Shown one piece after another: positions 22,371 to 63,751 of a DNA stretch of 64,000 nucleotides. The DNA comes from Candidatus Rokuibacteriota bacterium (GTDB lineage: Bacteria > Methylomirabilota > Methylomirabilia > Rokubacteriales > CSP1-6), in assembly GCA_003220225.1 (NCBI GenBank), contig QHRU01000075.1, positions 1-64,000 of the forward strand, written 5' to 3'. Position numbers and translations under genes: made by a program. Within the stretch, counting starts at the first letter, position 1; each line of letters starts with the position of its first letter. Under the pieces are notes generated by a model. It searched no databases and was not told the origin of the DNA. It worked only from the letters and a program-made list of their open reading frames with translations.

Positions 22371-23788
<1,418 letters not shown>

Positions 23789-23789
<1 letters not shown>

Positions 23790-25483
23790 CACACTCTCCT
23801 GCGGTCGAAGTCGCTCCGCTCGCCGGTGCCGTACACCTGGAGCGCGCCCTTCGGGCCGACCGCGTTCGGCCGCTGGAAGATCCAGTTCTGCCAGGCGGAG
23901 AGGCGGCCGAAGATCTTGGTCTCCAGCGTCTCCGGACCGCCGAAGCGCAGCGAGGCCTCCATCCCGGTCAGCGCGTCGGGCGAGAACGCGGCGCGCGCCT
24001 CCAGCGCCTGCCGCACCTCGTCCTCCCAGTCGATGTCGTCGGGCGTGAACGTGACGAGCCCGGCCGCGGCCGCGGTGCCGGCGTCGAGGTCCTGGCCCAC
24101 GCGGCCCTTGAGATCGTCGACGCGGCCGGGCTCCTTGAGGAAGCGGGCGGCCAGCCGCGAGAGCCCGTTGATCATCGGGTAGGCGCCGAAGTTGGCCGCG
24201 GTCAGCCGCACCGTGGCGGGCGGCGTCGGCTCGCCGGGCCGGGTTCCGTCGAGCATATAGGACCGGTCGGCGGCCAGCGCCAGCTCCAGCAGCGTGCCGG
24301 CGAAGCACGAGCCCGGCTCGATCAGCGCGAACACCGAGCGCGAGGAAACCTCGAGGCGCTTGAACACGCGCTTGAGGTAGAGGCGCACCTCACGCAGAAA
24401 CCAGTCGCTCGGGTGGCCGAGCAGGAGCCGGTCGTACGCCTCCATGGTGTCGGCAACGCCCTCGGTCTTGAGCACCCAGACTCCGATCGCCTCTTCGTTG
24501 CTTCTCAGATGCAGGATGAGATCGTCCAGCTCGCGGGCGATGGCGAGCGGCCAGAACTCGTCGCCCTGCGCGACGGCCGCCGCCGGGCTCGCGGGCGGCG
24601 CCGCCACGGGGCCGAGGATGGTGATCTCCGCGAGCCCGCGACGGCGATCCACCTTGGCGGTGACGTGGTCGTAGCCGACGAGGCCGTTCTGCTGCTGGTG
24701 ATCGTCAGCGATGGTGCGCCGAAGGAGGCGCAGGGTGACCCCGCGCGCGTCACGCGGCCGGTCGGTCTTCGCCGCCAGCTCGCGCGCCCGCTGGGTCACG
24801 GTTTCGGCGAGCCGCGAGCGCGGCACGACCTCGTCCACGAGGCTCCACTCGACCGCGCGCTTGCCCTTGACGCCTTCCTCGGTCGTGCAGAAGAAGTCGG
24901 CGCGGTCGCGGCGGACTTTCCGCTTGTCCACCAACCGGGTGAGGCCGCCCGTGCCCGGAAGCACGGCGAGCAGCGGCACCTCGGGCAGCGACACGGCCGT
25001 GTTGCCGTCGTCGGCCATCACGATCCACTCGGTGGCCAGCGCCAATTCGTAGCCGCCGCCGGCGCACGCGCCGTTGACCGCGGTCAGCCAGACCTGCCGG
25101 GACTCCGCGGAGGCTTCCTCCATGGCGTTGCGCGTCTCGTTGGTGAACTTGCAGAAGTTCACCTTGAAGCCGTGGCTGGACTGGCCGAGCATGCGGATGT
25201 TGGCGCCCGCGCAGAAGACGCGCTCCTTGCCGGAGGTCAGGAGGACCGCGCCCACCTCCGGGTGCTCGAAGCGCAGCCGCTGGAGCGCGTCGTACAGCTC
25301 GATGTCCACGCCGAGGTCGTAGGAGTTGAGCTTCAGCTCGTAGCCGGGTCGCAGGCCGCCGTCCTCCTGCACGTCCATCGTGAGCGTCGCCACCGGCCCG
25401 TCGAAGGCGAGCCTCCAGTGCGTGTAGCGTGCGGGCTCGGTGCGGAAGTCCACCGCGGGCTGGTTCGTCGTCGTCTCAGCCAT
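23789..25483 (-). CDS. boxC: 2,3-epoxybenzoyl-CoA dihydrolase BoxC
   Basis: This 564-residue protein of the crotonase superfamily opens and hydrolyses the epoxide ring to 3,4-dehydroadipyl-CoA semialdehyde and formate. The N-terminal crotonase-like half shows GKERVFCAGANIRML and AVNGACAGGGYELALATEW; the second half has FALIEPGSCFAGTLLELALAADR. BoxC is a double-length crotonase and the length agrees. It begins three nt after the XRE regulator stop and overlaps boxB. The semialdehyde dehydrogenase BoxD is not present here. Confidence 0.95.
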
Positions 25484-25486
25484 GGT

Positions 25487-26035
25487 CTATCCCAGGATGA
25501 CCCAGAGGACCCGGGCCTTCTTCGTTCCGAGGTTTTCCCAGCCGTGAGGCGCGCCGCCGTCGAGCAGCGCGCTGTCGCCGCTCTCCAGCGTCTGCCGGTC
25601 GCCGTTGTAGTGCAGCGCCACCGAGCCGTCCAGCACGTAGAAGAGCTTCATCTGGCCGGGCTTGATGACGACGCTCTCCGTCGTCACGCCCTTGCTGCGC
25701 GCGTCGAGCGTTGCAACGACCGCGCGGATCTTGCCCTCGAAGAGCCCCGCGCCCAGCACGCTCCAGCGCTCCGAGGTGCCGTCGAAGGAGACGACCGCGT
25801 AGTCCTTCTTGCGGCTCACCTGGATGCGGCGCGCGGGCTGGCCGTCGAAGAGCGTCGCGATCGGCACGCCGAGGGCGGCCGCGATGCGGCCCAGCGTGTG
25901 CAGCGACGGCGTGAGCCGGCCCGACTCGATCTGCGACACCATGCTCGGGGTGAGGTCGGCCTTCTCCGCCAGCTGCCGTTGCTGCAGGTCGCGCTCGAGC
26001 CGCAGCGACTTGATCCGCTCGCCCAACGACGTCAT
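25487..26035 (-). CDS. XRE-family regulator with C-terminal cupin
   Basis: This 182-residue DNA-binding protein has an XRE helix-turn-helix at about 5-60 (GERIKSLRLERDLQQRQLAE, TPSMVSQIESGRLTPSL). A cupin ligand-binding domain spans about 110-180 (KPGQMKLFYVLDGSVALHYNG, PHGWENLG). Known Box-pathway regulators (BoxR/BzdR) pair an XRE domain with a shikimate-kinase-like domain, so this is a different architecture at the same locus. ATG 26035 overlaps the hcrB stop (ATGA). Being inside the operon, it probably regulates hcr-box transcription, perhaps sensing an aromatic acid or CoA ester. Confidence 0.88.
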   Translation of the reverse strand: MTSLGERIKSLRLERDLQQRQLAEKADLTPSMVSQIESGRLTPSLHTLGRIAAALGVPIATLFDGQPARRIQVSRKKDYAVVSFDGTSERWSVLGAGLFEGKIRAVVATLDARSKGVTTESVVIKPGQMKLFYVLDGSVALHYNGDRQTLESGDSALLDGGAPHGWENLGTKKARVLWVILG

Positions 26036-30409: not shown

Positions 30410-31273
30410 ATGGCCTATCTCCGCACCGACGACCACGTCCGCATCTATTACGAAGAGCATGGTCCTACCGAGCCCAAGGCCACCGGCTCGCCCCTCGTGC
30501 TCGCCTACGGCATCGGCGGCAACGCGGACCTGTGGGACGTCAACGTTCCCGCGCTCGCCGCGCGCCATCGGCTCGTGCTCTGGGAGCCGCGCGGCCATGC
30601 GCGCTCGGACAGCCCGGAGGACCCGGCGCGCTACTCCTTCACGCGCTGGGCGCTCGATCTCAAGGCCGTGCTCGATCACCTGCGTCTGCGCACCGCGCAC
30701 GTGGGCGGGCTCTCGCTCGGCGCCGGCATCGCCACGCGCTTCACGCTGGCCTTTCCCTCGCGCGTCCGCTCGCTGCTCGTCACCAACTCGTCGTCGGCGG
30801 CGGGGCTGCCGCTGTCGGTGGACAACATCGTCATGCGCGCGCGCTCGATCGAGGTCACGCTGACCCGCGGCATGGACGCCATGGCCGAGTTCGCGATGGC
30901 GTCGAACCCCAACGTGGCGGCGCGCCTGGCGCTGGACCCATCCTCCAAGGACGAGTTCTATGCCTACTACCGCCGGCTCACGCCGATCGGCTACGCCAAC
31001 GCGCTCCGCGCGCTGCTCGCGATGGACCACATCACCGAGCGTCTGTCGCAGATCCGCGTACCCGTGCTGCTGATCGGCGGCGATCGCGACCCGTCGCTCG
31101 GTCCCATGAAGGTGATGCAGGCGAAGGTCCGTGGCAGCCAGCTGATCGTGCTCTCGCCGGCCAGCCACTTCGCCAACCGAGACCAGCCGGAGGCGTGGAA
31201 CCGCGCGGCGCTCGAGTTCCTGGCGCGCTGCGACGCCGGCGCGCGCGGACGACACCGCGCGCGCCGGCGCTGA
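30410..31273 (+). CDS. Alpha/beta-fold hydrolase
   Basis: This 287-residue hydrolase has the nucleophile elbow GGLSLGAG (Ser about 103), the acid Asp in LLIGGDRDPS, and His in SPASHFANRDQP. The oxyanion region is YGIGGNADLWD. Its fold and size match esterases, 3-oxoadipate enol-lactonases and meta-cleavage hydrolases; an aromatic-pathway role is possible beside the hcr-box operon but not shown. No signal peptide is present, so it is cytoplasmic. It ends just before the convergent TRL-like gene. Confidence 0.87.
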   Translation: MAYLRTDDHVRIYYEEHGPTEPKATGSPLVLAYGIGGNADLWDVNVPALAARHRLVLWEPRGHARSDSPEDPARYSFTRWALDLKAVLDHLRLRTAHVGGLSLGAGIATRFTLAFPSRVRSLLVTNSSSAAGLPLSVDNIVMRARSIEVTLTRGMDAMAEFAMASNPNVAARLALDPSSKDEFYAYYRRLTPIGYANALRALLAMDHITERLSQIRVPVLLIGGDRDPSLGPMKVMQAKVRGSQLIVLSPASHFANRDQPEAWNRAALEFLARCDAGARGRHRARRR

Positions 31274-32354: not shown

Positions 32355-33566
32355 CTACCTTTTGGCCGCGTCGTACAGCTCGCCGAACAGCACCCAGCGC
32401 TCGCCGTCGAACCTGGCGAGCTGCTCCTGCTCGATCGGCGCAAAATCGGTCGCGCTCGTGTTGATCTTGATCCCGGGCAGCAGCAGCGGCAGCTCGAGGT
32501 TCTTGAGGCTGGCCGCCTGCTTCATGATGTTCTCGCGGCTGAGGTCGTTGCCGCACTGCTTGAGGACCTGCACCAGCGTCTGGGCCACCGAGTACGCGTA
32601 GGCGTTCGCCTGGTCGTCGAGCGCGCCCTCGGGGTAGTACTTCTTCATCCACGCGACCCAGTCCAGGTAACCCTTGTCGTTCTTCCACTGTGGGTCGGTG
32701 ATCTCCTTCATGTACAGCGCGGTGATGAGCCCCTTCGACGCTTCGAGGCCCGCCGGCTTCAGCGTCGTCCCGAGCGAGCTCGACACGTTGTTCAGCAGGT
32801 GCAGAGGCTTCCAGCCGATGTCGTGCGCCTTCTTGATGGCCTGCACCGCGAACTTCGGGATCGTGACGTTGAAGAAGACGTTGGCGCCGCTGTTCTTGAG
32901 GTTGACGATCTGCGAGTCGATCGTCGGATCGGTGACCTCGTACGTCTGCTCCATGACGATCATCTTCTTGGCGGCGGCCTCCCCGAGCCCGTCGTGCAGG
33001 CCCTTGCGGTAGTCCTTGCCGTAGTCGTCGTTCTGGTAGAGGATGCCGATCTTCGCGTCGGGGACGTTCTTCAGGATGTAGTTCGCGTAGATGCGACCCT
33101 CGGTCTGGTAGTTGGGCTGCCAGCCCATCGTCCACGCATGGTTCTTCGGGTCGTTCCACTTCGTCGCGCCGGTCGCCACGAAGATGTGCGGCACCTTCTG
33201 CTGGTTCATGTACTTGTGGATGGCCGTGTTGGTCGGCGTGCCCAGCGTCTGGAACAGCAGCGCGACCTGGTCCTGCTCGACGAGCTTGCGCACCATCTCG
33301 ACGGTCTTGGGCGGGGAATAGGCGTCGTCGTAGGTGACGTAGTTGATCTTGCGCCCGTTGATGCCGCCCTCCTCGTTGACCTTCTTGAAGTAGGCCCCGA
33401 GCGCCTTGCCGATCGTGCCATAGGCGGAGGCGGGGCCGCTGTACGGGTTGGTGTTGCCGATCTTGATCTCGGTCGCCGTGACGCCCGGCGTGTCCGCTGC
33501 CATCGTCACCGCCGGCGCCAGGGCCAGCGCCGCGAGCAGCGCGCTCAGTATCGTTCTCCTCAGCAT
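32355..33566 (-). CDS. Periplasmic solute-binding protein of Liv importer 2
   Basis: This 403-residue type I binding protein has a Sec signal (TILSALLAALALAPAVTMAA) and mature start GVTATEIKIGNTNPYSGPAS. The KIGILYQNDDYGKDYRKGL segment is typical of LivK-like receptors for aromatic or hydrophobic ligands. ATG 33566 follows AGGAGG. It is the last gene in the order livG-livF-livH-livM-SBP, unlike importers 1 and 3 where the receptor comes first. The ligand is unknown. Confidence 0.93.
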   Translation of the reverse strand: MLRRTILSALLAALALAPAVTMAADTPGVTATEIKIGNTNPYSGPASAYGTIGKALGAYFKKVNEEGGINGRKINYVTYDDAYSPPKTVEMVRKLVEQDQVALLFQTLGTPTNTAIHKYMNQQKVPHIFVATGATKWNDPKNHAWTMGWQPNYQTEGRIYANYILKNVPDAKIGILYQNDDYGKDYRKGLHDGLGEAAAKKMIVMEQTYEVTDPTIDSQIVNLKNSGANVFFNVTIPKFAVQAIKKAHDIGWKPLHLLNNVSSSLGTTLKPAGLEASKGLITALYMKEITDPQWKNDKGYLDWVAWMKKYYPEGALDDQANAYAYSVAQTLVQVLKQCGNDLSRENIMKQAASLKNLELPLLLPGIKINTSATDFAPIEQEQLARFDGERWVLFGELYDAAKR

Positions 33567-33634
33567 GATGTCCTCCTGTGGGGGCTCCCGGCGGCGCGGC
33601 CGGATGTGGGGACCAATCTTACTCCGGGCAACGG

Positions 33635-34597
33635 TCAGGCACGCGTGCCGGTTCCGCGGCGCCCGGCGCGCGCCAGGGCGAGGCGCAGGGCGCCGGCGAT
33701 GCCGCGCGGCATCACGTACATGAACAGGATCAGGAAGACGCCGTAGATCGCCCACGGCGCCGCCTTCGAAATGTCCTGGGCCCAGTTGGGCACGAACTGG
33801 ATGAACAGCGCGCCGAAGAGCGCGCCCGAGATGGAGGCGAGGCCGCCGATCACGATACCGACGAGGAGCGTGATCGACAGGAACACGTTGAACGCGTCGG
33901 GCGCCACGAAGGCGATGACCAGCGCGCTCAGCCCGCCGGCCACGCCCGTGTAGGCGGCGCTCACGCCGAACGTGAGCGACTTGTAGAGCGCGGTGTTCAC
34001 GCCCATGGCCTGGGCGGCGATGGGGTTGTCGCGGATGGCCACGATGGCGCGGCCGGTGCGGCCGGCGAGGAGATTGCGCGCCAGCACGAAGAGCGCGACG
34101 AGCACGCCGAGCGTGACGAAGTACAGCCACTGGTCGGGCGAGAGCTTGAGGCCCCACGGCGCGTTCGGCTTGGACAGCACGATGCCCTGGGAGCCGCCCG
34201 TCCAGTGCTCGAAGTATTTCAGGATCTGGGGAATCGCGAGGGCGAGCGCGAACGTCGCCAGCGCCAGGTAGAGGCCCTCGAGCCGCAGCGCCGGGATGCC
34301 GAAGAGAAAGCCCGCCACCAGGCACAGGACGCCGGCCGCGATGATGGTGAGCGGATACGGCACGTCCCAGCGGTCGATCATGATCGCCGTCGTGTAGGCG
34401 CCGAGCGCGTAGAAGGCGCCGTGGCCGAGCGAAATCTGGCCGTTGTAGCCGGTCAACACGTTCAGGCCGAGCAGCGCGATCGCGTAGACGCCGACCTGCG
34501 TGAACTGGAACAGCCGGAAGTTCGAGACGAAGAGCGGCAGGACGAGCGCCACCGCCAGCGCCGCCGCCACCCCGACCGCCCGCGCGCGGGGCGTCAC
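33635..34597 (-). CDS. livM: Branched-chain-type ABC importer permease LivM (importer 2)
   Basis: This 320-residue permease has about nine hydrophobic spans. LivM features are GYNGQISLGHGAFYALGAYT, the cytoplasmic EAA-like loop IVAIRDNPIAAQAMGVNTAL and LVGIVIGGLASISGALFGA. GTG 34597 overlaps the livH stop (GTGA). It forms a heterodimer with LivH and is powered by LivG/LivF of the same operon. Confidence 0.92.
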   Translation of the reverse strand: MTPRARAVGVAAALAVALVLPLFVSNFRLFQFTQVGVYAIALLGLNVLTGYNGQISLGHGAFYALGAYTTAIMIDRWDVPYPLTIIAAGVLCLVAGFLFGIPALRLEGLYLALATFALALAIPQILKYFEHWTGGSQGIVLSKPNAPWGLKLSPDQWLYFVTLGVLVALFVLARNLLAGRTGRAIVAIRDNPIAAQAMGVNTALYKSLTFGVSAAYTGVAGGLSALVIAFVAPDAFNVFLSITLLVGIVIGGLASISGALFGALFIQFVPNWAQDISKAAPWAIYGVFLILFMYVMPRGIAGALRLALARAGRRGTGTRA

Positions 34598-35475
34598 ACC
34601 CGGTGGATGGTGGCGCGGCCGAAGAGACCGCTGGGCTTGAAGACGAGCACGATCAGGATCAGCGCGAGCGCGACCGTCAGCTTCAGCTCGGTGCCGATGA
34701 AATGCACGTAGGTGCCGACGAGGTTCTCGATCACCCCCACGATGAGGCCGCCGACGACGGCGCCGCCCGGGCTCGTGAAGCCGCCGAGGGTGGCGGAGGC
34801 GAAGGCGTAGATGAGGATGCCGGCCATCATGTTGGGATCGAGGAAGACGATGGGCGCCACCATCATGCCGGCGACGGCGCCGACCATCGCGGCCAGGCCC
34901 CAGCCGATGGCCAGCATCCAGCCGACGCGGATGCCGCACAGCCGGCTCGAGACGGGGTTCTGGGCGGCCGCGCGCATGGCGAGGCCGAGCGTCGTGAAGC
35001 GGAAGAACGCGTAGAGGAGCGCCAGCACGACGAGGGTGACGCCGATGGCGCCGAGGTCGTGGGCGCCGAACACCACGGTGCCCAGCATGATCGGCTTCGG
35101 AGGGAACGGGCTCGGAAAGGGCTTCTGGATATAGGAGTAGATCCAGCCCGCCACGCTGTTGAGGATGACGAGGAGCCCGATACAGACGATCACGATGGTC
35201 AGGATCGGCGCGCTCTCGACGGGCCGGATGATCACCCGCTCGAGCAGCACGCCGCCCACGAACGAGATCACCAGCGTTCCGAAGAACGCCCACCAGTACG
35301 GGACGCCCGCGTTGATCAGCGTCCACGCGATGTACGTGCTGAACATCGCCATCTCGCCCTGGGCGTAGTTCACGACGTCGGTGGCCTGGTAGATCATCAC
35401 GAGGGCCAGGGCCACGCTGCCGTAGATGCCGCCCGTGGCCAGCCCCGACACGACCTGCTGGAAGAAGATCTCCAT
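34594..35475 (-). CDS. livH: Branched-chain-type ABC importer permease LivH (importer 2)
   Basis: This 293-residue multi-span permease has LATGGIYGSVALALVMIYQA and VNYAQGEMAMFSTYIAW near the N-terminus. The conserved ATLGGFTSPGGAVVGGLIVG loop and the VLVFKPSGLFGR end are also present. ATG 35475 lies three nt after livF ends; it overlaps livM downstream. Confidence 0.92.
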   Translation of the reverse strand: MEIFFQQVVSGLATGGIYGSVALALVMIYQATDVVNYAQGEMAMFSTYIAWTLINAGVPYWWAFFGTLVISFVGGVLLERVIIRPVESAPILTIVIVCIGLLVILNSVAGWIYSYIQKPFPSPFPPKPIMLGTVVFGAHDLGAIGVTLVVLALLYAFFRFTTLGLAMRAAAQNPVSSRLCGIRVGWMLAIGWGLAAMVGAVAGMMVAPIVFLDPNMMAGILIYAFASATLGGFTSPGGAVVGGLIVGVIENLVGTYVHFIGTELKLTVALALILIVLVFKPSGLFGRATIHRV

Positions 35476-35477
35476 CG

Positions 35478-36187
<710 letters not shown>

Positions 36188-36188
<1 letters not shown>

Positions 36189-36982
36189 CAGCGCGCCTGC
36201 ACCGGCTCGTCGACGCCGAGATAGGCGCGGATGACCTCGGGGTCACGCTGCACCTGGGCGGGCCGGCCCTCGGCGATCTTGCGTCCGAAGTCGAGAACGA
36301 CGACGTTGTCGGAGATCGGCATGACGAGCCCCATGTGGTGCTCGACGAGCAGGATGGTGACGCCGCGTCGCTCGCGGATCGTGCGCAGCAGCGCCGCCAG
36401 CACGGCGACCTCCTCGTGGTTCAGGCCGCCCGCCGGCTCGTCGACCAGGAGCAGCGCGGGTGCGCCGGCGAGGGCGCGCGCCAGCTCGACGCGCTTGAGC
36501 GTGCCGAACGGCAGCCCGGCGGCGGGGTGCGCGGCGACGGCCGTCAGGTCGAGGAACGCGAGCAGCTCGCGCGCGCGCTCGCGGATCTCCGCCTCCTCGC
36601 GCCCCACCCACGGCAGGCGCAGCGCGTTGCTGAGGAAGTCGCTGCGCGTGCGACTGTGGACGCCGATCATCACGTTCTGGAGCACGGTGAGCGTCGGGAA
36701 CAGCGCGAGGTTCTGGAAGGTGCGGCCGATGCCGAGGTCGGCGATGCGGTGCGGCGGCAGCGCCAGCAACGAGCGGTCGCGGAAGCGGACGTCCCCCCGC
36801 TGTGGCGTGTAGAGCCGGCTCAGGCAGTTGAACAGCGTCGTCTTGCCGGCGCCGTTGGGGCCGATGAGCCCGACGACCTGGCCCTCGGCCACGTCGAAGG
36901 AGACGCCGTCGAGCGCGACGATGCCCCCGAAGCGGACGGTGAGATCACGGACGGCGAGAATCGGCTGCCGCGACGCGGACAC
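36188..36982 (-). CDS. livG: ABC importer ATP-binding protein LivG (importer 2)
   Basis: This 264-residue ATPase has Walker A GPNGAGKTT, a GLPFGTLKRVELARALAG signature region and Walker B LLVDEPAGGLNHEE. The frame is open to 37018, but that stretch overlaps the promoter. GTG 36982, giving SASRQPILAVRDL, lies seven nt after the -10 and is the likely start on a leaderless message. It is the first gene of the five-gene Liv operon 2. Confidence 0.9.
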
Positions 36983-54926: not shown

Positions 54927-56651
54927 CTACTGCGCGACCGCGAACACCCAGACGACGCCACCCTGTGGCACGTCCTTCGGCCACCCGAGCAGGTCGGACA
55001 ACAGCCCCTGCTGGAACGCCGGGTCGACACCCCAGCCGGAGGCCACGCCGATGTACTGAACGCCGTCGACGGCGAACGAGACCGGCGGAGCGGTGATGCC
55101 GGAGTTCGTGCGGAACTGCCACAGGACTTCCCCTGTGCTCGCATCGAACGCGCGGAAGTACCGATCATTCGTGCCGCCATTGAAGACAAGGCCGCCGCCC
55201 GTCGTCATGACCGGGCCCCAGTTCATCGAATCGGGGAACAGGTGGCTCCAGACGCGCTTGTTACCGCTGACGTCCCAGGCCTGGACCTCGCCGAAGTGCC
55301 TGGCGGTCTTGTCGACGGCGAACCCGATATCGGGAATGTCGACGCCCGTCCACCACTTGCCGGCCTCATACTTCTGGACCTTCCCCTCCATGTAGCCGCA
55401 GTGGTTGTCGTTGGCGGGAATGTAGAGCATCGCGGTCTTCGGGTTGTAGGCCGCGAATGGCCAGTCCTTGCCTCCCCAGAGCGAGGGGCAAAAGTCTGCG
55501 CGCTTGCCCGTGCGCGGGATGCGGTCCTCGTTGTACGTAGGCCGGCCCGTCGTCGGGTCGATGCTCTTGAAGACGTTCTGCTTGACGTAGGGGGTCGCCG
55601 AGACGAACGAGATCTTGTCGGCGCTCCGCTCCAGCCGGTAGAGATACCCGTTGCGCGCCGGCTTGATGAGACCTTTCACGGTGCGCCCGTCCTTCGTGAA
55701 GTCGGCGACGATCGGCGCATCCGGCTCGTCCCAGTCCCACGATTCGTTCCACTGGTACTGGAAGTGCGCCGCGAGCTTGCCCGTGTCGGGATTGATGGCG
55801 ACCGTGGAGGACGTGTAGAGATTGTCACCCGGGCGCTGGTCGCCGAACCACGGCGACGCGTTGCCCGTACCCCAGTAGGTCAGGTTCAGCGCGGGATCGT
55901 ACGTCCCGGTGATCCAGACGGAGCCCCCGCCCTTCTTCCAGGTGTCCCCCGTCCAGGTCTCGCTGCCCTTCTCGCCCGGCGCGGGAACCGTGTACGTCTT
56001 CCACGTCGGCTGCCCGCTGTTGGCATCGAAGGCCGCGACGAAGCCGCGGACGCCGAACTCGCCGCCCGAGACGCCCACCATTACCTTGCCCTTCGCCACG
56101 AGCGGGGCGAGCGTCATGTAGTAGCCGGTCTTCCAGTCCTCGACCTTCCGCTCCCAGGCCACCTTGCCGGTCGTGGCGTCGAGCGCCACCAGCACGCAGT
56201 CATGCGTGGCGAGGTAGACCTTGTCGCCGTAGAGGGCGACCCCGCGGCTGGTGTTGTGAAGCACGCTCAGCCCCTCGGGCATTTCCTTCTTGTATCGCCA
56301 CAGCAACTTCCCGGTCTTGGCCTCGAGGGCAACGACCTGGTTGTATGGCGTCGCGACGAACATGATGCCGTTGTTGACGAGCAGCGGCGCCTGATGGCCG
56401 GAATCGACGCCGGTGGAGAATGCCCACACCGGGGCCAGCTTCTTCACGTTGTAGGTGTTGATCTGATCGAGCGGGCTGTACGACCAGCCCTGGTAGTTGC
56501 CGCGGGTCATCAACCAGTTGGCCGGTTCCGGCTCGGCGAGCCGTTGGTCGGTGACCGGCCGATAGCCCATCCGCTGGGCGTCGGCCAGCATCGGCACGAC
56601 AATGATCGCGAGTACCGCAACGACGATTACGAGCTTTCTTGCCATCCTCAT
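54927..56651 (-). CDS. PQQ-dependent alcohol dehydrogenase with lanthanide-type metal site
   Basis: This 574-residue periplasmic quinoprotein oxidises an alcohol. A Sec signal (KLVIVVAVLAIIVVPMLADA) is followed by eight-bladed propeller repeats with tryptophan motifs (LEAKTGKLLWRYKKE, LDATTGKVAWERKV, FDASTGEVLWQFRTN). Likely metal and catalytic residues are Glu198 (GGEFG), Asn264 (WGTGNASP) and Asp306 in WNESWDWDEPD. The residue two after the catalytic Asp is Asp308; that Asp marks lanthanide-dependent enzymes (XoxF, PedH), whereas calcium enzymes have Ala, Ser or Thr. No haem domain is fused. AGGAGG precedes ATG 56651. The vicinal Cys pair of MxaF was not seen. Confidence 0.88.
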   Translation of the reverse strand: MRMARKLVIVVAVLAIIVVPMLADAQRMGYRPVTDQRLAEPEPANWLMTRGNYQGWSYSPLDQINTYNVKKLAPVWAFSTGVDSGHQAPLLVNNGIMFVATPYNQVVALEAKTGKLLWRYKKEMPEGLSVLHNTSRGVALYGDKVYLATHDCVLVALDATTGKVAWERKVEDWKTGYYMTLAPLVAKGKVMVGVSGGEFGVRGFVAAFDANSGQPTWKTYTVPAPGEKGSETWTGDTWKKGGGSVWITGTYDPALNLTYWGTGNASPWFGDQRPGDNLYTSSTVAINPDTGKLAAHFQYQWNESWDWDEPDAPIVADFTKDGRTVKGLIKPARNGYLYRLERSADKISFVSATPYVKQNVFKSIDPTTGRPTYNEDRIPRTGKRADFCPSLWGGKDWPFAAYNPKTAMLYIPANDNHCGYMEGKVQKYEAGKWWTGVDIPDIGFAVDKTARHFGEVQAWDVSGNKRVWSHLFPDSMNWGPVMTTGGGLVFNGGTNDRYFRAFDASTGEVLWQFRTNSGITAPPVSFAVDGVQYIGVASGWGVDPAFQQGLLSDLLGWPKDVPQGGVVWVFAVAQ

Positions 56652-56711
56652 TCGCTGGTCCTCCTCATGGAAACGGCTCGCCTCTTGCGCCGCGCTGCGC
56701 GATCACCTCCT

Positions 56712-57302
56712 CTAGGTCGTTTGACGTCCGACACGTCCGGTGAACCCACCGGCGGCGACGATGCCACGATCGATCGGCCCGAGCGGCAGCATGGGGAGGC
56801 GTCTCGGGGCAGGACCGTCGACGACGCGCGCGCGGTCGGCCGGATCGAATCGAGACGCGTGGCACGCGCAGAAGAGCGTCTTGGAGTCCTTATGCCACAT
56901 CGAGATGGGACACCCTTCATGCGTGCACACGGCGGAGTATGCGACGACGCCTCCCGCCGCCTCCGTCCGGGTGTCCGCGCTGAGCTGCGCGGGATCGAGC
57001 CGGATCAGGGCAACCTGATTCAGCAGGGATCCGTCGCGGATGACCTTCGTCACCGGATCCATCGGGAAGGCCAGTTGCTGAGGACCGCCGAGCGGCAGAT
57101 CCTCCAGGGCGATCACTTGGCCGCCGCGCTCACCGTAGGCGAAGACGAAGCGATCGCCCTTTCGAGGCCGAGCGGTCTTGTCGTCCTCGGCGGCAAGGAC
57201 GTCGACCCTGCATAGCGTCGCACCGAGCCCGAGGCCGACAGCGGCCTTCAGGACGGTACGTCGGTCCAGACGCTCCCCGTTTCCACCACATGGTGGAAGC
57301 AT
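56712..57302 (-). CDS. Tat-exported Rieske [2Fe-2S] protein
   Basis: The product has 196 residues. A Tat signal/anchor (LDRRTVLKAAVGLGLGATLC) precedes a Rieske fold with cluster ligands in CTHEGCPISMW and CACHASRFD (two Cys, two His). It resembles Rieske subunits of cytochrome bc-type complexes, but no cytochrome b gene is adjacent. Between the PQQ dehydrogenase and the IorAB genes it may relay electrons in a periplasmic oxidation chain. ATG 57302 follows GGGAGG at 8 nt. It is read from the promoter at 57344-57372. Confidence 0.85.
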   Translation of the reverse strand: MLPPCGGNGERLDRRTVLKAAVGLGLGATLCRVDVLAAEDDKTARPRKGDRFVFAYGERGGQVIALEDLPLGGPQQLAFPMDPVTKVIRDGSLLNQVALIRLDPAQLSADTRTEAAGGVVAYSAVCTHEGCPISMWHKDSKTLFCACHASRFDPADRARVVDGPAPRRLPMLPLGPIDRGIVAAGGFTGRVGRQTT

Positions 57303-57343
57303 TCGCCCCACCTCCCTTGTATGCGCGTTCCAAGGGTGCCGGG

Positions 57344-57372
57344 ATTCTTCGCGGGCAGCGGCGCTTTGTCAA
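57344..57372 (-). promoter_or_regulatory. Sigma-70 promoter of the Rieske-PQQ dehydrogenase genes
   Basis: On the minus strand, -35 TTGACA (57372-57367), 17-bp spacer, -10 AAGAAT (57349-57344). The start would be near 57337, about 35 nt before ATG 57302. The gap of about 60 bp to the next gene suggests cotranscription of the Rieske and PQQ dehydrogenase genes. Confidence 0.6.
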
Positions 57373-57445
57373 GGGCGATCGAGTCAACGCCGCGCCCGCG
57401 CCGGGCAGGCAGCGGCCGTCCGCCGCTGCCCGCCCGACGACACGG

Positions 57446-59713
57446 TCAGACGCTGAGCTGCGACTTCGTGATGGGCAATTCTAGAATTCGCTTGCCCGTC
57501 GCCGCGAAGATCGCGTTGGTCAGGGCCGGCGCGAGGGGCGGTGTCCCGGGCTCACCCACGCCGCCGGGTGGAAACTCGTTGGCGTCCACGATGTGCACCC
57601 GGATCTCGCGCGGCGAATTGCCCATCCGCGCCATCGGGTAGTCGTTGAAATTGCTCTGCTTGATCCGGCCTTTCTCGGCCGTGATCTCGCTGAAGGCGGC
57701 CGCGGTCAGCCCGTAGATGGAGGCGCCCTCCATCTGCGACTTCACACGATCGGGATTGACGACACGGCCGGCGTCCACCGCCACATCGACGCGCGGGATG
57801 GCGACCTTGCCGTCGTTGCCGACCTTCACCTTGACCGCCGTGGCTACGTAGGTCGTGAAGCTGCGGTGCACGGCGAGGCCGATGCCTTCGCGCGGGCCGA
57901 GCTTCTGGCCATAGCCCGATTGCTCGGCGGCCACGCGCAGCACGCGCTTCAGCCGCTCGGTCATGATCGGGTACTCGTCGTACGTCTGGTCATAGTTCCA
58001 ATAGTCCGCCGTCGAGAGATCGACCACGCGGTCCGGCCCGATGAGCTCGAGCAGGAACTCGTACGGATCGCGCTTGGCGGCCACGGCCAGCATGTTCGCC
58101 ATCGTGTTCTGAGCGAACGCGTGCGGGATGTTGTTCACCGAGCGCAGCCAGCCGATGCGCACGTGGGACTTCGCCTGTCCGTTCTCGAGACAGATGTTCG
58201 GGATCGCGTAGGGGAGATCGAGGAAGCCGAGGCTCAGCTCGATCTTGTTGCCATACCCCGGATCGTCTTTCTCGAACGTCGACCAGATGGTCGGGAACAC
58301 CGAGCGGTGCTGCCAGGCCGTGACCTTGCCGTCTTTGAGCCCCGCCTTGATGTACTGCGCGGTGACGGTGTGGTAGTACGCGTGCTGGATGTCATCCTCG
58401 CGCGTCCAGGTGACGCGAACCGGAACGCCGAGCTGCCTGGACAGGATGGCCGCCTCCGCCGCGAAGTCGGGCTTCGACTTGCGCCCGAAGGCGCCGCCCA
58501 GCAGCGCCACGTTCGACGTCACGTTCGCTTCGTCCATGCCGATGGCGCCGGCGACGGTCGCGCGGGCGGCCTGTGGATCCTGGCACGACGACCACACCTC
58601 GCACTTGCCATCCTTGACATGCGCGATCGCGGCCGGCGGCTCCATGGTCGCGTGCGCGAAGTGCGGCACGTAGAAGGTCGCCTCGACCACCTTGTCCGCC
58701 GCCGCCAGGGCGGCCTTGACGTCACCTTCCTCGCGGACGATCTTGGCGTCGGCGCGCGCCGCCTGCTCGAGGTCCCTCCGGAAGGTCGCCGAGTCGTAGA
58801 CGACGTTCGGGCCGTAATCCCAGTCGATCTTCAGCTTCTTGCGGCCTTGCTCGGCCGACCACGTGTTGGTGGCGATGACCGCGATGCCGCCCAGGGTGTT
58901 GAACACGATCGGCGGCTGCGTCTGTGGGATCTCCACGACCTTTTCGACGCCGGGCACCTTCAGCGCCTCGCTGGGATCGAACGACTTCACCTTGCCGTAG
59001 GTGACCGGGCAGTGCTCGACCACGGCGTACTTCATGCCGGGCAGCCTGACGTCGATTCCGTACGTCGCCTTGCCCGTCACCATGTCCGGGAAGTCGACGC
59101 TGGTCATGGGCTTGCCGATGTAGCGGAAGTCCTTCGGGTCCTTGAGCGCGACGGCCATGACGTCCGGCACCGGGAGGGTGGCGGTCGTCTCCACCAGCTC
59201 GCCGTACCCGAACGAACGGCCCGTCGGCACGTGGACCACGCGATGGTTCTGCCCCTTGCACTCCGCCGAGTACACGCCCCACTTCTTCGCCGCCGCCTGC
59301 TCCAGCATCGTGCGCGCCACGGCGCCGAACTGGCGCATGCGGTCGTAGTTGTGGCGGATGCTCCGCGAGCCGTCGGTGTACTGGTTGCCGTACTTCTTGT
59401 CGCCGACCGCCTGCGCGATCTTGACTCGGCTCCAGTCCGCCTCGAGCTCGTCGGCGAGGATCATCGGGACGCTGGTGCGCACGCCCTGGCCCATCTCCGA
59501 GCGATGGGCGATGATCGTCACCGTTCCGGCGGTGTCGATGGAGACGAACAGGTTCGGACTCAGCGTGGGACCGACGGCGGCCGGAGCCTGAGCGACGGGC
59601 GCGAACGGGTTGAGTCGCGCGAGCGGATCGAGCTGGAGCGCGAGCGCGAAGGTTCCGGTGGCGGCCACGCCCTTGAGGAAGGTTCGGCGGCTGACGTTCT
59701 CAATGGCGTTCAT
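57446..59713 (-). CDS. iorB: Isoquinoline 1-oxidoreductase-type molybdenum subunit (IorB-like aldehyde oxidase)
   Basis: This 755-residue molybdopterin subunit has a Tat signal ([20 protein letters not shown]), so the complex is periplasmic. Marks are [60 protein letters not shown] and the C-terminal [20 protein letters not shown] with the active-site Glu. The IorB class oxidises aldehydes or N-heterocycles and passes electrons to cytochrome c. Beside the PQQ dehydrogenase, oxidation of an aldehyde product is the likely job. It overlaps the iorA stop (ATGA). Confidence 0.88.
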
Positions 59714-60165
59714 GACTTCACCCCCGCCGCGTCCTTGATGGCCGCGCGAATCCGGGTGTAGGTGCCGCAGCGGCAGATGTTGCCAGCCATCGCGGCATCG
59801 ATATCCGCGTCACTCGGCTTGGGATTTCTCGCGAGCAACGAGGCCGCCTGCATGATCTGGCCGCTCTGACAGTAGCCGCATTGGGGTACGTTGGCGGCGA
59901 TCCAGGCCTTCTGCAGGGGATGATTGCCCGATGCGCTGAGGCCCTCGATCGTCGTGACCGGCCCCTTCACCGCGCCCACCGGCAGCACGCACGAGCGTTG
60001 CGCGACACCGTTGACGTGCACGGTACAGGCCCCGCACAGAGCCATACCGCAGCCGAACTTCGTCCCGGTGAGTCCGACCACGTCGCGCAGGACCCAGAGC
60101 AAGGGCACCTGCGGCGGGACGTCCACCGAGTACGATTTACCGTTCACCGATAGTGATACCGCCAT
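59710..60165 (-). CDS. iorA: Isoquinoline 1-oxidoreductase-type [2Fe-2S] subunit (IorA-like)
   Basis: This 151-residue partner of IorB holds two [2Fe-2S] clusters: [20 protein letters not shown] (about 38-57) and [15 protein letters not shown] with [18 protein letters not shown]. The protein has no signal of its own and is expected to travel with Tat-exported IorB. ATG 60165 follows GGAGG; the upstream ATG 60186 would add a seven-residue extension. It is the first gene of iorAB. Confidence 0.92.
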
Positions 60166-60297
60166 GACCGCCTCCTTCCTCAGCACGTGACAGAAGGGCG
60201 CGACTTCGGATCAGTGGGATGGGGTCGGGTCGGGCCAGGCTGCTCTCACCTCCTTACGAGGGTCGTCCTCGCGGCGGTGCCCGTTGGTGGCGGCGAG

Positions 60298-60327: not shown

Positions 60328-60735
60328 TCACGCGGCAGTGAACTTCGGGATGCTGAACCCTTCCTTCACGTCGTCGAACGTCACGCGCACCGGCAGGCCG
60401 ACGGCGACCTTCGCCGGATCGACGGCGACGATGTTGCTCATGACCTGCACGCCCTCCTCCAGCTCGATCCACGCCAGCACGTAGGGCAGCTCGTCGCGAA
60501 AGCCGCGCGCCTGGGTGCGGTAGGTGACCGTGAAGGTGTAGACGCGTCCGCGGCCCGCGCTCGGCGTCCATTCGACGTCGGCGCTCCAGCAGGCTGCGCA
60601 GACGCCGCGCGGGTAGTACTGCACGGTGCCGCACGCGCGGCACTTCTGCACGAGGAGCTCGTGGCGCGCGCAGGCATCCCAGAACGGCTTGGACTCGGCG
60701 GTGATCTCCGGCAGCGGCTTGGCGTAGTCGGCCAT
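60328..60735 (-). CDS. DUF35 protein: zinc ribbon plus OB-fold
   Basis: The product has 135 residues. A zinc ribbon (CRACGTVQYYPRGVCAACWS, CxxC-x10-CxxC, about 32-51) is followed by an OB-fold (YTFTVTYRTQARGFRDELPY, KVAVGLPVRVTFDDVKEGFS). DUF35 proteins partner thiolase-like enzymes, binding acyl-CoA substrate (e.g. ChsH2 with Ltp2 in steroid side-chain cleavage). ATG 60735 overlaps the stop of the thiolase-like gene (TGATG), the expected partner. Confidence 0.9.
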   Translation of the reverse strand: MADYAKPLPEITAESKPFWDACARHELLVQKCRACGTVQYYPRGVCAACWSADVEWTPSAGRGRVYTFTVTYRTQARGFRDELPYVLAWIELEEGVQVMSNIVAVDPAKVAVGLPVRVTFDDVKEGFSIPKFTAA

Positions 60736-61880
60736 CACGACCTCCCCAGAATCAGCGTGGCGCCCGAGTGGCGGTTGCCGAGGGCGCCGCCGGTGCCGTG
60801 CACGAGCGCGACGCGGCAGTCCCTCACCTGCCGCTCGCCGCACTCGCCGCGCAATTGCTTGACGGCCTCGACGACCAGGAAGATCCCGCGCATCCCCGGA
60901 TGGTTGGACGACAGCCCGCCGCCGTCGGTGTTGATCGGCAATTCGCCGCCGAGCGCGATGCGGCCGCCGGAGACGAAGGCGCCGCCCTGGCCCTTCTTGC
61001 AGAAGCCGAGGTCCTCGAGGGTGACCAGCACGGTGATGGTGAACGAGTCGTAGATCATCGCCATGCTCACGTCGCGGGGCGAGAGCCCCGCCTCGGCCAG
61101 GGCGCGAGGGCCCGACTCGGCGGCGGCGGAGACGAGGAAGTCGCGGCGGCCGCCGGAGGTGTGGGCGATGGCCTCCGCGCTGCCGAGCAGCCGCACGGGC
61201 GGCTTCTTGAGATCGCGGGCGAGGTCCGGATGCACGACGACGAGGGCGCCGCCGCCGTCGGTGATCACGCAGCAGTCCAGCAGGTGCAGCGGCGCCGAGA
61301 TCATCGGCGAGGCCAGCACGTCCTTGACGCTGATCGGATCGCGGTAGAGCGCGAGCGGGTTCAGCGACGCGTGCGTGCGCGTGGCCACCGCGATCTCCGC
61401 CAGCTGTTCCGACGTCGTGCCGTACTCGTGCATGTGCCGCCGGGCCACCATCGCATAGAGGCCGACGGTGGAGGTGCCGTAGAGCGCCTCGAACTGGTCG
61501 AGGTAGTCGCCCGAGATCCGCTCGCGGGTGCCGACGGCGACGCCGGACGAGCGCGACGTGCTGCCGTACGTGATCAGCGCCACACGGCAGCGGCCCTCGG
61601 CGATGGCGGCCGCCGCGTGGTTGACGTGGGCGACGAACGACGAGCCGCCGATCGTGGTGCCGTCGATGTACTTCGGATTGAGGTTCAGGTAGTCGACGAT
61701 CGGCAGCGGCCCGATGCCGGGGTTGGCGGCGACGGTGAAGTAACCGTCGACGTCCTTCTTGCCGAGCCCGGCGTCCTCCAGCGCGGCGCGCGCGGACAAC
61801 GCCTGGATCTCGAGCATGCTCTTCGCCGTCTTGCGCTCGGGAAACTCGTGGACACCCGCGATCAGTGCCTGCGGCTTCAT
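60735..61880 (-). CDS. Thiolase-superfamily protein (SCP2/Ltp2-like), lacking the usual nucleophile Cys
   Basis: This 381-residue thiolase fold has LSARAALEDAGLGKKDVDGY, GRCRVALITYGSTSRSSGVA, VITDGGGALVVVHPDLARDL, and the C-terminal HGTGGALGNRHSGATLILGR. The expected nucleophile position reads IGGSSFVAHVNH (about 77-88) with Ser where condensing thiolases have Cys. Together with the DUF35 partner this suggests a lyase (retro-aldol, Ltp2-like) or a non-thiolytic acyl-CoA enzyme rather than a true thiolase. The gene overlaps pduO-like and DUF35 genes on either side. Confidence 0.85.
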   Translation of the reverse strand: MKPQALIAGVHEFPERKTAKSMLEIQALSARAALEDAGLGKKDVDGYFTVAANPGIGPLPIVDYLNLNPKYIDGTTIGGSSFVAHVNHAAAAIAEGRCRVALITYGSTSRSSGVAVGTRERISGDYLDQFEALYGTSTVGLYAMVARRHMHEYGTTSEQLAEIAVATRTHASLNPLALYRDPISVKDVLASPMISAPLHLLDCCVITDGGGALVVVHPDLARDLKKPPVRLLGSAEAIAHTSGGRRDFLVSAAAESGPRALAEAGLSPRDVSMAMIYDSFTITVLVTLEDLGFCKKGQGGAFVSGGRIALGGELPINTDGGGLSSNHPGMRGIFLVVEAVKQLRGECGERQVRDCRVALVHGTGGALGNRHSGATLILGRS

Positions 61881-62503
61881 TTGGCCCTCCGCCGGGCGTG
61901 CGACGACAGTCCACGCTCCCAGAGATATTCCGGCTCACCCATGTGCTTGCCCACCCAGCGGCCCAGCACGAAGAACAGATCGCTCAGCCGGTTGACGTAG
62001 CGCAACGGCCACTCGCCGATCTCCTCCACGCGCGACAGCGCCAGGACCTCGCGCTCCGCGCGCCGGCACACCGTGCGCGCCTGGTGCAGGAAGCCCTGGA
62101 TCCGGCCGCCACCCGGCAGCGTGAAGGATTTCAGGGGCGCCAGATCTTTCTGGCAGTGGTCCATGAGCTTCTCCAGCTCCGTGACCTCGCCCTCGCCCAT
62201 CCTGAACATACCCTCGTACGCGGCGTCCGGGGGCGTCGCCAGCTCGCTGCCGAGATCGAAGAGCTGGTTCTGGATCTTCTTCAACACCTCGTCCAGCCAG
62301 CGGTGGCGCTCGCGGCCGGCGCCGCGTCCCGCCATCCGCTCCGCGTTGAACACGCGCGCGAGCCCGACCGCCGCGTTGAGCTCGTCGATGGTGCCGTACG
62401 CCGCGATGCGCGGCGAGTCCTTCGGCACGCGCCGGCCGCCCACGAGCGCCGTCTCACCGCGGTCCCCCGTGCGCGTGTATACCCGCGTGATGCTGATCGG
62501 CAT
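61877..62503 (-). CDS. PduO-type cob(I)alamin adenosyltransferase
   Basis: The enzyme has 208 residues and makes adenosylcobalamin from ATP and reduced corrinoid. ATP-binding N-terminal motif TRTGDRGETALVGG and RIAAYGTIDELNAAVGLARV; C-terminal helix motif RRAEREVLAL and LRYVNRLSDLFFVLGRWVGK. All are PduO-class signatures. ATG 62503 heads an operon with the thiolase-like and DUF35 genes. Adenosylcobalamin would serve a mutase (e.g. methylmalonyl-CoA mutase) that is not in this window; the link suggests acyl-CoA side-chain breakdown to propionyl-CoA. Confidence 0.93.
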   Translation of the reverse strand: MPISITRVYTRTGDRGETALVGGRRVPKDSPRIAAYGTIDELNAAVGLARVFNAERMAGRGAGRERHRWLDEVLKKIQNQLFDLGSELATPPDAAYEGMFRMGEGEVTELEKLMDHCQKDLAPLKSFTLPGGGRIQGFLHQARTVCRRAEREVLALSRVEEIGEWPLRYVNRLSDLFFVLGRWVGKHMGEPEYLWERGLSSHARRRAK

Positions 62504-62569: not shown

Positions 62570-63751
62570 GTGAAGACCCGACCCCGCGCGGTGCTCCTCG
62601 CCGCGTCCACCATCCACTTCCTGCATGACGGCTTCTCGGAGACGCTCTACGTCTTCCTGCCGCTGTGGGCGAGCGAGTTCGGCCTCTCGTTCTCGCAGGT
62701 CGGCCTCATCCGCTCCGCGTACACCGGCGGCATGTCGGCGTTCCAGATCCCGGCAGGCTTCCTCGCCGAGCGCATCGGTGAGCGGCGGATCCTGGCCCTC
62801 GGCACCGCGGTGACGGCGCTGGGCTTCGTCGCGGCGGGCTGGGCCGGCGGCTTTGCCTCGCTCCTCGTGCTGCTGCTGGGCGCCGGGCTCGGCTCGGGCG
62901 TCCAGCACCCGCTGTCGTCGTCGATCGTCAGCAAGGCGTACGAGGACGGCAACCGGCGCACCGCGCTCGGCACCTACAATTTTTCGGGCGACATCGGCAA
63001 GGCGGGGGTGGCCGCCGCCATCGGCCTCGCAGCCGGCCTCGTCGGCTGGCGCGCGGCCGGCGCCGCCTACGGCGTGCTCGGTCTCGCGGCGGCGTTCGCC
63101 ATCGTGCCGCTGCTGAGCCGCCTCAACGCCGGCGGCGCCGAGGCGCGCGACGCGGCCGATTCGTCGCCGGCCCCGGGCTGGGGCATCCGCGACGGGCGCG
63201 GCTTCGGGGCGCTCTGCGCGATCGGCATGATCGACAACGCCACGCGCACCGGCTTCCTCACCTTCATGCCGTTCATCCTGATGGCCAAAGGCCTGGGCGT
63301 GGGTGGCGTCGGGCTCGCGTTCGCGCTGGTGTTCGCGGGTGGCGCGACGGGCAAGTTCGTGTGCGGCGTCGTCGCCGATCGCGTCGGCGTGATCCGTACC
63401 GTCGTCATCACCGAGGCCGCGACCACGGTGCTGATCCTCACCGTGGTCGCCGCGCCGCTGCCGGTGGCGCTGGCGGTGCTCATTCCGCTCGGCATCGCGC
63501 TCAACGGCACGTCGTCCGTGCTCTACGGCACCGTGGCCGATCTCGTGTCCAGCGAGCGGCGCTCGCGCGCCTACGGGCTGTACTACACCACCACCATCGC
63601 CGCCTCCGCGCTGGCGCCGACCGTGTGGGGCCTCATCGGCGACCTCGGCGGCGTCCCGCTCACGCTCACCCTGGTGGGTCTCTTCGTCCTGGCGACGATT
63701 CCGCTCTGCCTCCTCCTGCGCCCCGCCGTCGCCGCGTCCGCGCGATCCTAG
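62570..63751 (+). CDS. MFS transporter
   Basis: This 393-residue, 12-span major facilitator has LPLWASEFGLSFSQVGLIRS and the loop 2-3 motif GFLAERIGERRIL. The repeat-half counterpart is GKFVCGVVADRVGVIRTVVI, and the conserved QHPLSSSIVSKAYEDGNRRT follows span 4. The substrate is unknown. GTG 62570 is used because no ATG with family similarity precedes it; no clear ribosome site is present. It diverges from the adenosyltransferase operon. Confidence 0.88.
   Translation: MKTRPRAVLLAASTIHFLHDGFSETLYVFLPLWASEFGLSFSQVGLIRSAYTGGMSAFQIPAGFLAERIGERRILALGTAVTALGFVAAGWAGGFASLLVLLLGAGLGSGVQHPLSSSIVSKAYEDGNRRTALGTYNFSGDIGKAGVAAAIGLAAGLVGWRAAGAAYGVLGLAAAFAIVPLLSRLNAGGAEARDAADSSPAPGWGIRDGRGFGALCAIGMIDNATRTGFLTFMPFILMAKGLGVGGVGLAFALVFAGGATGKFVCGVVADRVGVIRTVVITEAATTVLILTVVAAPLPVALAVLIPLGIALNGTSSVLYGTVADLVSSERRSRAYGLYYTTTIAASALAPTVWGLIGDLGGVPLTLTLVGLFVLATIPLCLLLRPAVAASARS

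Follow-up and report, generated by a model that had tools for sequence, protein, structure and literature searches.

Cysteine-less thiolase-fold protein with a DUF35 partner gene in Candidatus Rokuibacteriota, a putative retro-aldol acyl-CoA lyase

Which reaction is left to a protein of thiolase fold once the nucleophilic cysteine is gone? The question is raised by three genes on the minus strand (60328-62503) of a 64,000-nucleotide stretch of Candidatus Rokuibacteriota DNA (positions 1 to 64,000 of contig QHRU01000075.1, assembly GCA_003220225.1; hereafter, the window). The first codes for ATR, a PduO-type cob(I)yrinic acid a,c-diamide adenosyltransferase (61877-62503; 208 aa), the second for a thiolase-fold protein of the PRK08142 family (60735-61880; 381 aa), a putative retro-aldolase, and the third for a DUF35 protein (60328-60735; 135 aa from the ATG), proposed as a partner subunit, with a C-x2-C-x10-C-x2-C zinc ribbon and an OB fold. 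The first two genes overlap by four bases (ATGA) and the last two by one (TGATG); a codon-usage gene caller picked the same three frames and ends in the window. Judged from sequence, the thiolase-fold and DUF35 proteins probably make up one enzyme, a retro-aldol acyl-coenzyme A (acyl-CoA) lyase.

All three family assignments exceeded curated cut-offs. The thiolase-fold protein matched Pfam Thiolase_C_1 and NCBIfam PRK08142 (499.5 bits; cut-off, 462), and also the sister model PRK06158 (446.8 bits; cut-off, 421). PRK08142 is titled 'thiolase domain-containing protein', a name that carries no function, and the family models matched bear thiolase or acetyl-CoA acetyltransferase names. The DUF35 protein matched zf-ChsH2 (55.2 bits; cut-off, 23.2) and OB_ChsH2_C (76.2 bits; cut-off, 27.1), its nearest solved chains being the DUF35 parts of CtShy (9myr_B) and TcChsH2 (6ok1_B). 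ATR, whose activity is predicted, matched Cob_adeno_trans and PduO_Nterm (TIGR00636; 178.1 bits, cut-off 108.45). A 97%-identical copy with the same order of the three genes is present in another genome of the genus (G002). Since this copy, the linkage to DUF35 and a Cys-less loop common to all of the 80 best relatives coincide, the arrangement is not due to chance. The three genes had been described in a preliminary description made from the letters of the window, together with a GGSSF motif at the nucleophile loop and the overlap with the DUF35 gene; all of this was confirmed, GGSSF corresponding to residues 78-82.

Thiolases need a nucleophilic Cys, and their NEAF/HDCF and GHP loops are active-site loops. 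When the window protein is aligned with six paralogs from its genome, Gly79 falls in the nucleophile column, where the paralogs on contigs C117, C18 and C133 have Cys; the paralog on C14 is Cys-less too. In place of NEAF/HDCF the window protein has YDSF (Tyr277), in place of GHP it has SNHPGM (His327), and its last loop, which has no Cys in the alignments with paralogs and relatives, is GTGG (residues 362-365). A scan of GTDB species genomes gave at least 581 regions that code for a relative at E values up to 1e-3, of which the best 80 were examined. None of these 80 had a Cys in the nucleophile loop, all 80 had YDSF, 77 had [HQ]GTGG, and the equivalent of His327 was found in 79 of the 79 in which that stretch is present, the remaining one being cut by a contig end. 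YDSF was likewise found in 25 of 25 relatives of a smaller tally, where a single row shows VGACR- as its first loop; we take this row to be L030, a split-gene fragment whose first loop is not covered. The relative in L016 is cut by a contig end. Because conservation is so tight, these loops point to an active enzyme rather than to a relic. Among the matches listed, family members were seen in eight bacterial phyla and one haloarchaeon, the nearest named relatives being Candidatus Rokuibacteriota loci L046 (82%) and L052 (77%); L045 is a nearly identical contig filed as Acidobacteria. At 9540-10694 of L147 (contig C150 of the same genome), a paralog carries GGCSF, whose Cys is shifted by one residue from the column of the thiolase nucleophile, and belongs to the branch of 4u4e (see below). 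At 4766-5766 of L146 (genome G001), the thiolase-like gene is broken into two reading frames, either a real loss or an assembly error.

Two characterized Cys-less aldolases of this fold, both with DUF35 partners, were used for comparison, with residue numbers taken from PMC12329534. TcLtp2-ChsH2(DUF35) is the 17-hydroxysteroid side-chain aldolase (6ok1), and CtSal-CtShy(DUF35) the bile-acid C5 side-chain aldolase (9myr). Tyr277 aligned with Tyr294 of TcLtp2 and Tyr302 of CtSal, both essential bases; Ser279 aligned with His296 and Cys304, respectively; and His327 aligned with Tyr344, the acid of TcLtp2, and with Gln352 of CtSal. The sets thus differ: Tyr/Ser/His in the window protein versus Tyr/His/Tyr in Ltp2 and Tyr/Cys/Gln in Sal. 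Like TcLtp2, to which it is 35% identical, the window protein has the thiolase fold, no nucleophilic Cys and the Tyr of a YDxF loop, and a DUF35 protein with a C4 zinc finger is found in both systems, although in the window the partnership is deduced from the genes and DUF35 is a separate short protein. With CtSal-CtShy it shares a GG loop without Cys, the Tyr of the CtSal YDCY loop and the DUF35 partner, but the zinc finger of the window DUF35 protein is of type C4 rather than C3H1. Of the residues that define Ltp2, the second catalytic Tyr (Tyr344) and the His of YDHF are absent; of those of the Sal YDCY loop, Tyr302 is matched and Cys304 is not, YDSF standing there in the window protein as in the best 80 relatives. 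On its defining residues, neither the Ltp2 nor the Sal label applies.

The first of two unrooted trees (61 rows) split the Cys thiolases from CtSal, TcLtp2 and a PRK08142-like clade at a branch with support of 100/99; the thiolase side also included the Cys-less 4yzo, the C14 paralog and a partial BbsB row. The second, of 38 rows, from which the shakiest rows (BbsB included) were removed, had a 100/100 branch placing the thiolase-fold protein with TcLtp2 and CtSal, apart from five Cys thiolases. Forcing the protein among these five cost 157 log units and was rejected by the approximately unbiased (AU) test (p-AU 0.0003), a test that presumes a group named beforehand; this holds for placement among Cys-containing thiolases, which the preliminary description had named as the outcome that would speak against an aldolase, though the first tree was already known when the test was run. 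The branch marks off an 'aldolase side' without proving that side to be a clade. Within it, the clade of the window protein excluded both TcLtp2 and CtSal (100/98 in both trees). The suggestion of an Ltp2-ChsH2-type aldolase therefore stands in part: the protein is Cys-less, paired with DUF35 and, by sequence and tree, nearer to Ltp2 and Sal than to Cys thiolases, but it is not an Ltp2 ortholog, lies in a separate clade and has another catalytic set. A different paralog of the genome (L148, 8594-9814; contig C134), with YDAF, a Tyr near the place of Ltp2 Tyr344 and a DUF35 gene following, did group with TcLtp2; as both are long branches, this join is less sure. The large clade of the window protein contains 4u4e, a 'putative thiolase' of Sphaerobacter thermophilus with 51-54% identity, which shares GGSSF, YDSF, THPGM and GTGG with the family and is closer to the C150 paralog than to the window gene. 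A whole-word search of the open-licence literature found no related paper on 4U4E or PRK08142.

Structure modelling against Ltp2 and thiolases, as the preliminary description had advised, ranked CtSal, 4u4e and TcLtp2 at the top without deciding the matter. The AlphaFold model of the thiolase-fold protein (45 sequences; pLDDT 91.3, pTM 0.93) was nearest to CtSal (Z 53.5, root-mean-square deviation 2.0, 369 residues aligned), a first place tied within 2 Z units with others. Next came 4u4e (Z 52.2), TcLtp2 (51.9) and TbSLP (51.0). Foldseek ranked 4u4e, CtSal and TcLtp2 first. Thiolases scored almost as high (6esq, Z 50.5; 7yvy, 50.1), and because the rows lie within about 3 Z units of one another, the fold gives no functional decision. 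The same scores bear on the first alternative, namely that the protein is a true thiolase or acyltransferase (such as SCP2 thiolase or PhlC) in which another residue acts as nucleophile. Besides the fold, the loop His is kept (NHP, compared with GHP in thiolases) and the database names are those of thiolases or acetyl-CoA acetyltransferases. The SCP2-type and archaeal thiolases (6esq, 7yvy, 6hsj) have the same fold, and 6esq even has a DUF35 partner, yet they carry the nucleophilic Cys and an HDCF/HDAF loop and are separated from the window protein in the trees. The lack of Cys in both the nucleophile loop and the last loop, and the presence in the genome of the three separate Cys-bearing proteins of this fold (on C117, C18 and C133), which the tree also sets apart, make this alternative very improbable.

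For a retro-aldol acyl-CoA lyase, the substrate would be a 3-hydroxyacyl-CoA with the bulk of the molecule on the hydroxyl carbon. Tyr277 would take the proton of the 3-hydroxyl, upon which the C2-C3 bond would break; the CoA enolate would be held by loop amides and protonated, most likely through His327, and the products would be an aldehyde or ketone plus acetyl-CoA or propionyl-CoA. His327 is favoured since Ser279 alone is unlikely to be the acid: the corresponding CtSal residue, Cys304, serves as the acid there, and the Cys304Ser change abolishes activity (PMC12329534). We infer this reaction and its products, and also what each residue does and that the two proteins form a physical complex. 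A comparable step, likened here by its described reaction only, is that of IpfD-IpfE of ibuprofen degraders, where IpfD is also called a thiolase; PMC9195938 describes removal of the ibuprofen side chain by retro-aldol cleavage to propionyl-CoA and 4-isobutylcatechol. As to the partner, PMC12502768 presents DUF35 as indispensable for aldolase activity in C. testosteroni, in cholate side-chain removal, while PMC11321319 has it as apparently unimportant for Ltp2-type activities; the two are at odds. The scaffold might instead serve other CoA chemistry, such as decarboxylation of malonyl- or 3-ketoacyl-CoA. TbSLP, the structurally close protein mentioned above, lacks the thiolase Cys residues and slowly decarboxylates malonyl-CoA, and in one relative (G027) the unit has an acetoacetate-decarboxylase-like gene as a neighbour. 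However, the TbSLP rate is very low, and the authors of the CtSal work (PMC12329534) suggest that TbSLP is an aldolase too; with Tyr277 also kept in 80 of the best 80 relatives, decarboxylation is unlikely.

The gene neighbourhoods of the relatives tie DUF35 to the thiolase-like gene. The best 80 loci were split by hand, by identity and taxon, into 42 nearer and 37 farther loci (L080 was set aside); gene calls in relatives came from a simple codon-usage caller, which can miss or mis-start genes, and several gene names were given by eye. A DUF35 gene lay within 6 kb in 38 of the 42 nearer and 36 of the 37 farther loci, and in three of the four nearer loci lacking one the contig ends 112 bases or less from the thiolase-like gene. 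The commonest operon among the relatives, by Pfam names, runs alpha/beta hydrolase, thiolase-like, DUF35, PHP and two hot-dog (MaoC-type) proteins, and was found in records titled Binatia, Deltaproteobacteria, Myxococcales, Acidimicrobiia and others (L047-L108). Both hot-dog genes were present in 22 nearer loci, the PHP gene in 23 and the hydrolase gene in 29; none of them was seen in the farther loci. A search of the window's own genome for this hydrolase-PHP-hot-dog operon gave no PHP match at E 1e-5, an empty result without a positive control. In G019 an SDR gene precedes the thiolase-like and DUF35 genes, after which two MaoC-type proteins are encoded, one carrying GDFNPIH and the other having Tyr instead of His. 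This pair resembles the setting of TcLtp2-ChsH2(DUF35) and fits the ChsH1-ChsH2 pattern of one hydratase-motif protein and one in which Tyr replaces His, as given in PMC11321319. An acyl-CoA dehydrogenase gene follows DUF35 in G038. In G017, an MCM-family mutase, a luciferase-like protein (named by eye and tblastn) and an ADP-forming acyl-CoA synthetase-domain protein precede the thiolase-like gene; farther on, a Liv-type transporter and an apparent B12-binding subunit are encoded (both by eye). The same C-C chemistry could in principle run forward, as an aldol-joining, biosynthetic step, the mechanism being presumably reversible; the catabolic-looking neighbours in several relatives (CoA ligases, acyl-CoA dehydrogenase, Liv-type uptake; partly named by eye) argue against this, and we consider it a rather remote prospect.

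Several observations weigh against a retro-aldol lyase. Ser279 sits where CtSal has the Cys that Ser cannot replace. Cys loss alone does not make an aldolase, since the Cys-less C14 paralog and 4yzo fall with the Cys thiolases. The fold search cannot separate aldolases from thiolases, and no family member with an assayed activity was found in the open-licence literature. The first hot-dog protein of the commonest operon is without the hydratase motif in 22 of 22 loci and the second keeps the motif His in 1 of 22; because the Asp/His motif is mostly gone, a hydratase step in that operon is doubtful, and the evidence speaks against its being a plain copy of the steroid hydratase-aldolase unit. 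The best NCBIfam matches of the G019 MaoC-type pair are HadB/HadA dehydratases, below cut-off. Lastly, the window operon contains no hydratase or acyl-CoA dehydrogenase gene. Such genes, which the preliminary description had suggested looking for, do occur elsewhere in the genome (33 matches to PF00441, acyl-CoA dehydrogenase, and 17 to PF13452, hydratase-type), but these are too many for partners to be named. With all this counted, a retro-aldol acyl-CoA lyase is still the reading best supported by the Cys loss, the Tyr and His conservation, the DUF35 linkage and the tree, even though the full catalytic sets of Ltp2 and Sal are not those found here.

The coupling with the adenosyltransferase had been taken in the preliminary description as a hint of a pathway yielding propionyl-CoA. 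ATR is the sole PF01923 match in this 97%-complete genome, which has four PF01642 (MCM-family) mutases, on contigs C3, C47, C94 and C18, none of them with ATR. Among 60 relatives compared, eight have the thiolase-like gene at 77% identity or more; in five of them (G001, G002, G006, G034 and G027) ATR adjoins it or lies within two genes of it, and the portions of G017, G019 and G038 that were searched (L142, L143, L144, L162) yielded no ATR. Within 6 kb, and with the window ATR as query (a very different ATR could escape), a same-strand ATR was present in two of the 42 nearer loci, L045 and L046, and in none of the 37 farther ones, with 74 of the 80 loci having at least 1.5 kb upstream; in L080 the gene is convergent. 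As L045 is nearly identical to the window and L046 is Rokuibacteriota, ATR was rejected as a universal partner. The gene that diverges from ATR in the window, an MFS transporter (62570-63751, plus strand; assigned by family search and comparison with relatives), has a 71-89% identical relative beside ATR in L046, L140, L141 and L146, that is, in all four relatives readable there. ATR is thus most likely a general supplier of adenosylcobalamin carried in a shared transcript, not a pathway step. A dedicated ATR, serving a B12-dependent mutase that would take up the propionyl-CoA or other acyl-CoA released by the lyase, is compatible with a retro-aldol reaction. In its favour are the 4-base overlap, the proximity in five of the eight close relatives, the propionyl-CoA described for the IpfDE step (PMC9195938) and the MCM-family gene of G017, which is in the same run and closest in the PDB to 2-hydroxyisobutyryl-CoA mutase. 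The single ATR of the genome, the mutases on other contigs, the patchy adjacency, confined to part of the Rokubacteria-like genomes, and the constancy of the MFS gene beside ATR render it improbable, though less so than the alternatives above. Shared adenosylcobalamin supply is the simpler reading, and the G017 mutase keeps the pathway link alive. A separate cluster on contig C18 of the same genome (L150, 20100-39900) encodes a DUF35 protein and a Cys-bearing protein of thiolase fold alongside an MCM-family mutase, a small B12-binding subunit (by eye), an acyl-CoA dehydrogenase and a MaoC-type protein; as the site of a thiolase-DUF35 pathway that supplies a B12 mutase, this cluster is a stronger candidate than the window.

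A possible substrate supply is indicated by gene order in G027, where a divergent MFS gene is followed by ATR, luciferase-like, acetoacetate-decarboxylase-like, thiolase-like, DUF35, LivG, LivF, LivH, LivM and LivJ genes and a PcaD-like gene facing back. Apart from the luciferase-like and decarboxylase-like genes, this whole run has counterparts in the window, 71-89% identical and unchanged in relative orientation, but here they form two blocks (63751-60328 and 36982-30410), and other genes fill the 23 kb that separates them. The second block is a Liv-type ABC transporter operon on the minus strand (32355-36982), consisting of LivG (36188-36982), LivF (35478-36188), LivH (34594-35475), LivM (33635-34597) and LivJ (32355-33566), with a PcaD-like alpha/beta hydrolase gene at its far end (30410-31273, plus strand; 79% identical and in the same place as in G027). 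LivG and the LivJ-type protein were named by family search and the other Liv genes by order and sequence; all are 82-89% identical to those of L140. DUF35 also adjoins LivG in L046. We infer from this that a transporter for the substrate, which is probably a carboxylate, originally belonged to the unit, although G027 and L046 could also have joined two separate units.

Among the other genes nearby, molybdenum hydroxylase and pyrroloquinoline quinone (PQQ) dehydrogenase genes immediately downstream (54927-60186) were rejected as members of the unit, having no counterpart above 45% identity in the stretches read of G002 and G001, both of the same genus. On the other side almost no sequence remains, as the contig ends at 64189, 189 bases beyond the window. 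Further off, boxB and boxC (22371-25483), for benzoyl-CoA 2,3-epoxidase subunit B and 2,3-epoxybenzoyl-CoA dihydrolase of aerobic benzoyl-CoA breakdown, scored well above the NCBIfam cut-offs, and an XRE-type regulator gene (25487-26035) lies beside them.

Tentatively, and with somewhat less confidence than we have in the lyase itself, these genes may represent a third way of retro-aldol C-C cleavage on the thiolase fold, by a Tyr-His pair without Cys, in a family catalogued under thiolase or acetyl-CoA acetyltransferase; in Rokubacteria the enzyme may be part of an uptake-plus-degradation operon for a carboxylic acid, with breakdown via a B12-dependent mutase. The thiolase-type names imply a reaction that a Cys-less enzyme should not perform, and if the family members are true lyases, the pathways drawn for many uncultured bacteria would need redrawing. 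The Tyr-Ser-His site would offer a clean, mutable test of the minimal change that turns a thiolase into an aldolase, for which the solved structure of a relative (4u4e) exists as a guide.

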